Below are positions 40,584 to 41,648 of a DNA stretch of 64,000 nt, piece after piece (positions within the stretch are counted from its first letter, which is position 1; the number at the start of each line of letters is the position of its first letter). Made by a program: the position numbers and the translations under genes. Source of the DNA: Propionibacteriaceae bacterium (GTDB taxonomy: Bacteria; Actinomycetota; Actinomycetes; Propionibacteriales; Propionibacteriaceae); the NCBI GenBank assembly GCA_031262485.1, contig JAISHO010000019.1:1-64000 (forward strand), written 5' to 3'. Below the pieces are notes generated by a model, which was not told the origin of the DNA, searched no databases, and was given only the letters and a program-made list of their open reading frames with translations.

Positions 40584-41648
40584 ATGGATGAATTGATGTC
40601 TGAACCCGCTCTCGCGTCGCACGTCGAAAAGTTGTTTGACCAAGCATCTCTGCTCATTGAGCAGGGACGTGCCGAAGCCGCGATCAAAGTCAACTCTGTG
40701 TTGACTATGACACATTGGTATATTGGCAAACTCATTGCTGATGATTTTCTTGACGAAAACCGCGCTGACTACGGAAAACAGATTGTCGCGACACTGTCGC
40801 GACAATTGGTCGCCCGCTACGGCCGTGGTTTCGAGGAGAAGACGCTGCGTCGAATGGTCCAATTTTTCGAAGAGTTTCCCGACGAGCAGATTGTCGCGAC
40901 AGTGTCGCGACAATTGACCTGGAGCCACATCGTCGAGATTCTCCCCGTGAGAACCCCAGAGGCACGGATGTTCTACGCTCGACAGGTCGGGGATCACCAC
41001 CTCAGCGTCCGAGAGCTCCGGAAGATCATTGCCAGGAAAGCCTTCGAACGGCAAGAGATAGCCAACTCCCAAGTGGCCGACGGTTCAGCCGTGCCACTCG
41101 ACACGTTCCGCGATCCATTCCTCCTTGATTTTCTCCGCCTCCACGACTCCTACCAAGAACGCGACTTAGAGTCGGCGATCATTCGAGAACTCGAATCTTT
41201 CCTGCTTGAAGCGGGCAATGGGTGGACCTTTGTCGACCGTCAAAAGCGAATCAGCATCGACACCGAGGATTTCTACCTCGACCTTCTCTTCTACTCCCGG
41301 CCGCTACGCCGCCTCGTCGCCGTTGAACTGAAAATCGGCAAGTTCAAAGCCGCCTACGAGGGGCAGATGAAGCTCTACCTCAAATGGCTCGATCGCTATG
41401 AACGCCAGCCCAGCGAAGAGGCGCCCATCGGACTCATCCTCTGCACCGAGGCCAGCCGCGAGCAGATCGAACTGCTCGAGATGCACAAGGACGGCATCGT
41501 CGTCGCCGAGTACTGGACGGATCTCCCACCGAAGAGGGAACTCGAGCAACGGCTCCAGACGATTCTTCGCGAGGCCAAGGAACGCCTCGCCCGCCGGGGC
41601 GACACCCCGCTCTCCATCACCGCCGAGACCGAGGAGGACGACGGATGA
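40584..41648 (+). CDS. DUF1016/YhcG-family PD-(D/E)XK nuclease domain protein
   Basis: YGKQIVATLSRQLVARYGRGF, LSRQL/WSHI repeat, DLLFYSRPLRRLVAVELKIGKFKAAYEGQM. Confidence 0.93.
   Translation: MDELMSEPALASHVEKLFDQASLLIEQGRAEAAIKVNSVLTMTHWYIGKLIADDFLDENRADYGKQIVATLSRQLVARYGRGFEEKTLRRMVQFFEEFPDEQIVATVSRQLTWSHIVEILPVRTPEARMFYARQVGDHHLSVRELRKIIARKAFERQEIANSQVADGSAVPLDTFRDPFLLDFLRLHDSYQERDLESAIIRELESFLLEAGNGWTFVDRQKRISIDTEDFYLDLLFYSRPLRRLVAVELKIGKFKAAYEGQMKLYLKWLDRYERQPSEEAPIGLILCTEASREQIELLEMHKDGIVVAEYWTDLPPKRELEQRLQTILREAKERLARRGDTPLSITAETEEDDG
40782..40806. repeat. 25-bp palindrome, copy B (inside DUF1016 CDS)
   Basis: ATTGTCGCGACA-C-TGTCGCGACAAT. Confidence 0.95.
40890..40914. repeat. 25-bp palindrome, copy C (inside DUF1016 CDS)
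   Basis: ATTGTCGCGACA-G-TGTCGCGACAAT; 108 bp (36 codons) after copy B. Confidence 0.95.

Follow-up and report, generated by a model that had tools for sequence, protein, structure and literature searches.

In the parS/ParB/Noc system, parS is one fixed sequence that is used at many chromosomal sites. In REP sequences with their RAYT transposases, and in integron attC sites, it is instead the symmetry that is kept as the letters vary, and the element is tied to a mobile gene. A recognition site located inside a gene has a precedent in parS-359 of B. subtilis, which lies within parB (PMC4442127). Palindromic DNA that is also translated has been described as well: the RPEs of Rickettsia are repeats of ~100-150 nt in unrelated genes (PMC4316617), and the PARCEL elements are 25-residue amphipathic repeats, imperfectly symmetric, in DUF285-type surface proteins (PMC2996958). 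Here we consider palindromes within genes of the DUF1016/YhcG family, a candidate phage-defence family which is found in many phyla and in most of the E. coli genomes searched, yet is rarely named in the open-access literature, and for whose palindromes we found no published account in open-access full text.

The analysis started from a window of 64,000 nucleotides of a Propionibacteriaceae genome (contig JAISHO010000019.1), for which the original prediction had described two perfect 25-bp palindromes embedded in the coding sequence of a DUF1016 gene. Both are present as claimed (Table 1): palindrome 1 (site 1, ATTGTCGCGACACTGTCGCGACAAT) and palindrome 2 (site 2, ATTGTCGCGACAGTGTCGCGACAAT) are exact, with 12-bp arms, and lie in a common reading frame, 108 bp or 36 codons apart from start to start. 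While right about these two sites, the earlier inventory had overlooked that they are mutual reverse complements, with C at the centre of one and G at the centre of the other, and that a third exact copy lies in an intergenic interval of the window; the three are the only exact copies in the 2.84-Mb host genome. The nonapeptide of site 1 can be encoded in 497,664 synonymous ways, and no such palindrome is expected by chance, as judged by 100 shuffles of the window (0/100). The gene itself is a member of PDC-S02, a PADLOC candidate defence family, both by PADLOC and by its domains (DUF1016_N and the PD-(D/E)XK domain YhcG_C), and is flanked by a full-length methyltransferase gene on one side and a duplicate of the C-terminal 270 residues of that methyltransferase on the other. 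The intergenic copy adjoins an AAA_16 ATPase gene, as does an orphan copy in a distant organism (L041:4216-4240), the two ATPase genes being alike by eye. Another perfect palindrome, ATGTCCTAATSATTAGGACAT, occurs at 24159-24179 and again at 24439-24459, upstream of the fic gene (24471-25646), and is likely to be an operator.

Table 1. Features of the window discussed in the text (aa, residues of the DUF1016 protein)
Feature	Position	Strand	Description
Third exact copy of the palindrome	25663..25687		Intergenic, in the interval from the end of fic (25646) to an AAA_16 ATPase gene (ORF from 25876); CTGA flanks on each side
DpdE/DrmD-like SNF2 helicase	33343..36249	+	PADLOC DpdE 3e-282, DrmD 8e-85
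DrmMI / type IIG-like N6-methyltransferase	36246..40457	+	Directly upstream of DUF1016 gene; Pfam Eco57I; PADLOC DrmMI 8e-57
DUF1016 / YhcG gene, 354 aa	40584..41648	+	Pfam DUF1016_N 5e-40, YhcG_C 2e-44; PADLOC PDC-S02 4e-121
DUF1016_N domain, aa 24-156	40653..41051	+	Pfam; AF2 pLDDT 92.7; predicted ParB/Noc-like DNA-binding domain
Palindrome 1	40782..40806	+	Encodes IVATLSRQL, within helix aa 61-79 (AF2)
Helix aa 85-97 (EEKTLRRMVQFFE) segment	40836..40874	+	AF2 secondary structure; candidate recognition helix by comparison with ParB (eye and hhalign)
Palindrome 2	40890..40914	+	Encodes IVATVSRQL, helix aa 101-110, immediately N-terminal of (S/T)WSH; near-universal palindrome position in the family
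YhcG_C PD-(D/E)XK nuclease domain, aa 173-324	41100..41555	+	Pfam
Second copy of methyltransferase C-terminal part	41645..42493	+	Directly downstream of DUF1016 gene; matches the end of the 36246-40457 protein at 46% identity (272 aa)
McrB-like AAA and McrC-like genes	42490..45527	+	Pfam AAA_5/Mrr_N, McrBC

A scan of 85,488 species genomes for the exact element, TGTCGCGACANTGTCGCGACA, returned 66 loci, 58 of which overlap DUF1016 sequences, from many phyla, and encode IVAT(L/V)SRQ(L) at one or the other of the two window positions; in L038 and L053 the exact element is found just upstream of the DUF1016 gene. The GC content of the hosts ranges from 32 to 67%, and the proteins that share the exact 25-mer have a median N-domain identity of 51%, with a minimum of 27% (53 genes). 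Since the 25-mer is kept across proteins as divergent as these, it is the DNA that is conserved and not the peptide alone, which strongly supports the earlier proposal that a DNA palindrome is conserved on top of a protein motif; the codons of homologues do not follow the pattern that had been named as its refutation, in which the same residues are written in palindrome-breaking codons. One locus (L006) lacks the 36 codons between the sites, so that site 1 runs directly into site 2 with the frame intact, as expected from recombination between two repeats. A search with the degenerate pattern IVAT(L/V)SRQ in 199 genomes of the window's phylum gave no match beyond the window's own copies, and viral contigs gave a single match, with a different spacer and context. 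Orphan palindromes were also seen in two defence loci that have no adjoining DUF1016 gene, one between hsdM and an Abi-like gene (L228:2425-2451) and one upstream of an McrBC-like operon (L225:3793-3823).

The TGTCGCGACA sequence is one version among many. Most homologues carry another perfect palindrome in the same codons, those of site 2 and, for certain lineages, also those of site 1 (for instance ATTGCGCAGACACTGTCTGCGCAAT, ATTGTCGTATCAGTGATACGACAAT or ATTCGGGACGCAGTGCGTCCCGAAT), the length varying between 25 and 29 bp across genes, and some genes contain tandem arrays of 2-5 differing palindromes, in frame, in the loop before (S/T)WSH or PWGH. Altogether, we collected 148 distinct in-frame palindromes, with arms of all kinds. 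For an unbiased sample, 79 DUF1016 genes from Bacteroidota, Pseudomonadota and Verrucomicrobiota, related to unknown degrees, were picked on no criterion other than their Pfam family. Of these genes, 58 reach 10 or more mirrored pairs out of 12; the same threshold is passed by 4.3% of versions of these proteins recoded with synonymous codons and by 1.5% of segments of matched length from the nuclease half, and 57 of the 58 palindromic genes have their palindrome in one shared frame. The corresponding Fisher test against the control (~5e-41) ignores relatedness, and kinship inflates such p-values, but the contrast is still large. Chance and codon bias are ruled out by the synonymous recoding and the nuclease-half control. 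Furthermore, a pattern that fixes only ATTGT, CASTG and ACAAT, leaving 10 bases free, gave, in 35 genomes, matches that were all palindromic, against 0 in the control. The comparison of these sequences strongly supports the view that the DNA symmetry itself is being maintained in DUF1016 genes.

One could speculate that such palindromes derive from a selfish protein-coding element, similar to the Rickettsia RPEs, which was inserted in frame in DUF1016 genes and then spread, and the original prediction had likewise raised the possibility of a palindromic mobile unit that built the motif. The in-frame arrays, the existence of intergenic copies and a palindrome located in the interdomain linker of one protein (L226) are all compatible with such an origin, and expansion of tandem arrays does happen in some DUF1016 genes. 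However, single-copy sites align to their relatives without any indel, the copies have no shared sequence, and the palindromes are nearly absent beyond DUF1016 genes and their flanks, which makes an inserted element improbable. A general dispersed element is disfavoured by the 10-free-base pattern, whose matches lie nearly all in or beside DUF1016 genes.

The manner in which the palindromes vary is informative about the level at which they are constrained. Where the palindromes of one gene differ from each other (pairs 2-9), both are Watson-Crick paired in 142 of 202 cases, drawn from 37 genes. The inner cores (pairs 2-7) are shared to a larger extent within a gene (0.59-0.75) than between genes (0.34-0.56); the innermost pair is the least conserved, and pairs 2-3, next to the centre, are mirrored to roughly the same degree as those further out. 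The sharing within genes points to a sequence-specific core with symmetric but free outer arms. Flanking odd palindromes of any sort accompany 14 of 176 genes, several of these palindromes being unrelated, and few genes are flanked by a copy that has their own core: upstream palindromes that share the in-gene core occur in L038 and L053, with a degenerate one in L048, and most genes have the in-gene site alone. A test of core sharing between flanking and in-gene palindromes gave a mean of 7.7 versus 5.6 of 12, which, being small and based on 15 comparisons, is only suggestive. In principle, the arms could pair in RNA too, and form an mRNA hairpin that regulates the DUF1016 transcript. G-U pairs, however, are not favoured, as mismatches outside the innermost pair comprise 17 G-T and 41 A-C (46 and 60 overall), which argues for a constraint on DNA rather than RNA; in addition, no Rfam match was found in 25400-41700, and in E. 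coli a palindrome is also present past the stop codon. We consider regulation through an mRNA hairpin highly improbable.

The E. coli gene illustrates the same behaviour at short evolutionary range. The K-12 yhcG gene, which was taken by accession as a Pseudomonadota yhcG-like query matched nothing in E. coli, contains three palindromes, and a further, perfect one follows 16 bp past the stop; all four have the common core CAGACA-N-TGTCTG save for single mismatches. The palindrome after the gene reads ATTCTGCAGACASTGTCTGCAGAAT, or ATTCTCCAGACACTGTCTGGAGAAT in 2 of the 15 alleles inspected in this small survey, and the two versions differ by a compensated change, G/C to C/G, that affects both arms of this non-coding palindrome. 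Within the gene, the arms vary between allele families by mirrored triplets, and palindromes have been lost from some alleles, such as those of E. coli O157/O111. An insertion that starts at the end of palindrome 3 is present in one group of strains. In strain 13KWH46 (L281:1501-2400), yhcG is truncated by an inserted segment that contains a small transposase-annotated ORF, with the junction at that point, and the same breakpoint (nt 406) is seen in other listed strains. Homology breakpoints near palindrome 3 had been considered as traces of domain shuffling; on inspection they turned out to be IS or insertion junctions.

Variation of this kind could mean that the paired structure is what functions, either as a hairpin in single-stranded DNA or as an extruded cruciform. 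Its centre and its AATT feet would be conserved, its variable arms would need only to pair, and, as with REP or attC hairpins, it would be the nuclease or some other protein involved in mobilisation or recombination that recognises it. Such a structure would account for arms that vary yet remain paired even among tandem copies in one gene, the poorly conserved innermost pair would fit a 3-nt loop, and the contraction or rearrangement of arrays at palindromes (the L006 fusion, the losses in O157/O111, the insertion junction at palindrome 3) is in line with it. Nevertheless, the sharing of cores within a gene and the mirroring of pairs 2-3 indicate a constraint on the inner bases beyond what a hairpin alone would require, and no hairpin-specific partner was identified. 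A functional hairpin or cruciform is thus, in our judgement, unlikely, if worth keeping in mind.

In-gene palindromes are not confined to DUF1016. Among ORF6N genes of Bacteroidota (PF10543; L324-L353), 28 of 29 reach 10 or more mirrored pairs out of 12 (control 5.9%), in a 25-bp palindrome over LRSQIVTSS that displays mirrored arm variation. RhuM genes of the same phylum (PF13310; L354-L383) have at least 11 of 12 in 20 of 29 cases (control 1.7%), at (A)TVRNFRTV and with a core of CGGAAWTTCCG or AAGAAWTTCTT, and so do 12 of 30 Bro-N genes, again from Bacteroidota (L414-L443; control 0.8%), where the palindromes occupy two places, odd ones near xLSTxCRQL and even ones at HFVDVNKMV. In Fic genes of Bacteroidota (1/30) and in chromosomal parB genes (1/26), in-gene palindromes are at background. 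In the sequences sampled, the feature thus turns up in a number of families of DNA-binding and apparently mobile genes, with ORF6N, RhuM and some of Bro-N among them, and, given the background levels in Fic and parB, it is not general to mobile or HTH-bearing genes. One ORF6N gene (L018:1539-2093) has two related palindromes upstream in addition to the in-gene one. Another family of coding palindromes was noticed in this Bacteroidetes genome, in the form of three GTAGAGACGCAATGCATTGCGTCTCTAC copies in ORFs (L018:170-197, 7008-7035 and 7605-7632), of which two lie within a murC-like gene and in its reading frame.

The distribution among families also bears on whether the symmetry might be upheld by mutation, with template switching during replication copying one arm onto the other, such that symmetry and co-evolving arms would result in the absence of selection on symmetry. 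Correction of quasi-palindromes is an established mutation route in E. coli (PMC7202029); for RNA stems, compensatory change through template switching has been put forward as a way in which perfect pairing is maintained (PMC8794818); and the C/G flips at the centre are equivalent to palindrome inversions. Such a process should, however, affect any gene, whereas the nuclease half, Fic and chromosomal parB are at background, and it leaves the one fixed codon position across phyla unexplained. As the sole explanation we find it rather doubtful, a shade more so than a functional hairpin, although template-switch repair may assist the symmetry of a site that is selected for another function.

What such a function might be is suggested by the predicted fold. 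No sequence-related solved structure was found for the DUF1016 protein, but the 15 best Foldseek matches in the PDB to the AF2 model of its N-domain are exclusively ParB/Noc/Spo0J proteins, including Noc bound to its site, with probabilities of 0.96-1.00 and modest E-values of 0.03-0.3. In hhalign, the segment (S/T)WSH...LSVRELRKII is aligned to ParB xxGHARALL...LSVRxxExLV, with an E-value of 3e-4 that refers to a single comparison and a probability of just 41%, and Pfam HTH_ParB appears at the cut-off in one DUF1016 gene. With E-values that are modest, the N-domain is predicted to adopt a ParB/Noc-like DNA-binding fold, and the hhalign alignment would put the two sites on either side of the recognition helix, with site 1 coding for the preceding helix and site 2 for the following one. 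The N-terminal CTPase domain (ParBc) of ParB proper is absent, as Pfam gives only DUF1016_N and YhcG_C on the window protein.

Domains of the ParB/Noc-like type would be expected to bind symmetric sites of two-fold character, and the symmetric site that is conserved along with DUF1016 genes is found inside them. We therefore favour the interpretation that the palindrome is a parS-like site within the gene, recognised by the ParB-like/PD-(D/E)XK protein that this gene encodes, and hold it, on the strength of sequence, model and analogy, with moderate confidence. The DUF1016 protein would consist of a ParB/Noc-like DNA-binding domain joined to a PD-(D/E)XK nuclease domain, and a dimer, or pair, of N-domains would recognise a two-fold symmetric site of ~25 bp. 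This target would sit in the codons for the domain's own helices, mostly in the helix before (S/T)WSH and in some lineages also in the one before the recognition helix. Its inner bases would constitute the specific core, CAGACA-N-TGTCTG in E. coli and GACA-S-TGTC in the window, with outer arms that vary and stay mirrored. Binding could serve to sense or repress the encoding gene, to load or mark the nuclease at a set location, or to act against related elements. The self-recognition or autoregulatory site named by the original prediction corresponds to this leading reading, and the nuclease target that it also named may apply as well. Counting against an in-gene recognition site are the rarity of flanking copies that share the core, the Foldseek E-values, which do not fall below 0.001, and the orphan copies near other defence genes (the third copy in the window, L041, L228 and L225). 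Moreover, outer arms that differ within one gene and yet are mirrored are not needed for sequence-specific binding, and point to a hairpin or cruciform or to templated repair; recognition of the duplex, hairpin or cruciform formation and upkeep by template switching can act jointly.

Taken more broadly, one could speculate that these families represent a general, unrecognised device, in which unrelated mobile DNA-binding families (DUF1016, ORF6N, RhuM and part of Bro-N) each have an in-gene site of ~25 bp whose symmetry is conserved and whose letters are not, such that the gene codes for a protein together with its private, diversified target. This is a tentative proposal, to which we give slightly less than even credence. 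If true, it would couple specificity and target within one mobile piece of DNA. A coding sequence under the joint constraint of protein and DNA symmetry, encountered again in ORF6N and RhuM, would be unusual. The palindrome is in any case a testable candidate for the DNA bound by the DUF1016/YhcG protein, and self-targeting in these mobile gene families would become directly testable in E. coli.

Among described systems, parS/ParB/Noc, including parS-359, resembles the DUF1016 palindromes in having a short two-fold symmetric site inside the gene for a protein of the same predicted fold. It differs in that the DUF1016 letters are not constant across genes although the symmetry is, that the site doubles as coding sequence for helices of the protein itself, and that the partner domain is a nuclease. 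The RPE and WPE elements of Rickettsia and Wolbachia share the property of palindromic DNA translated in frame within proteins, but the DUF1016 palindromes are 25-29 bp long and occupy a fixed position in homologous genes across phyla. PARCEL offers a parallel in its tandem arrays of variable-sequence palindromic coding units in horizontally moving genes (PMC2996958), whereas the DUF1016_N units are ~9 residues long and occur in ParB-like nucleases, and are not PARCEL elements. Finally, REP and attC sequences lie outside the coding sequence of their partner gene, and there is no HUH transposase or integrase here, while the DUF1016 palindromes are found within the gene itself.
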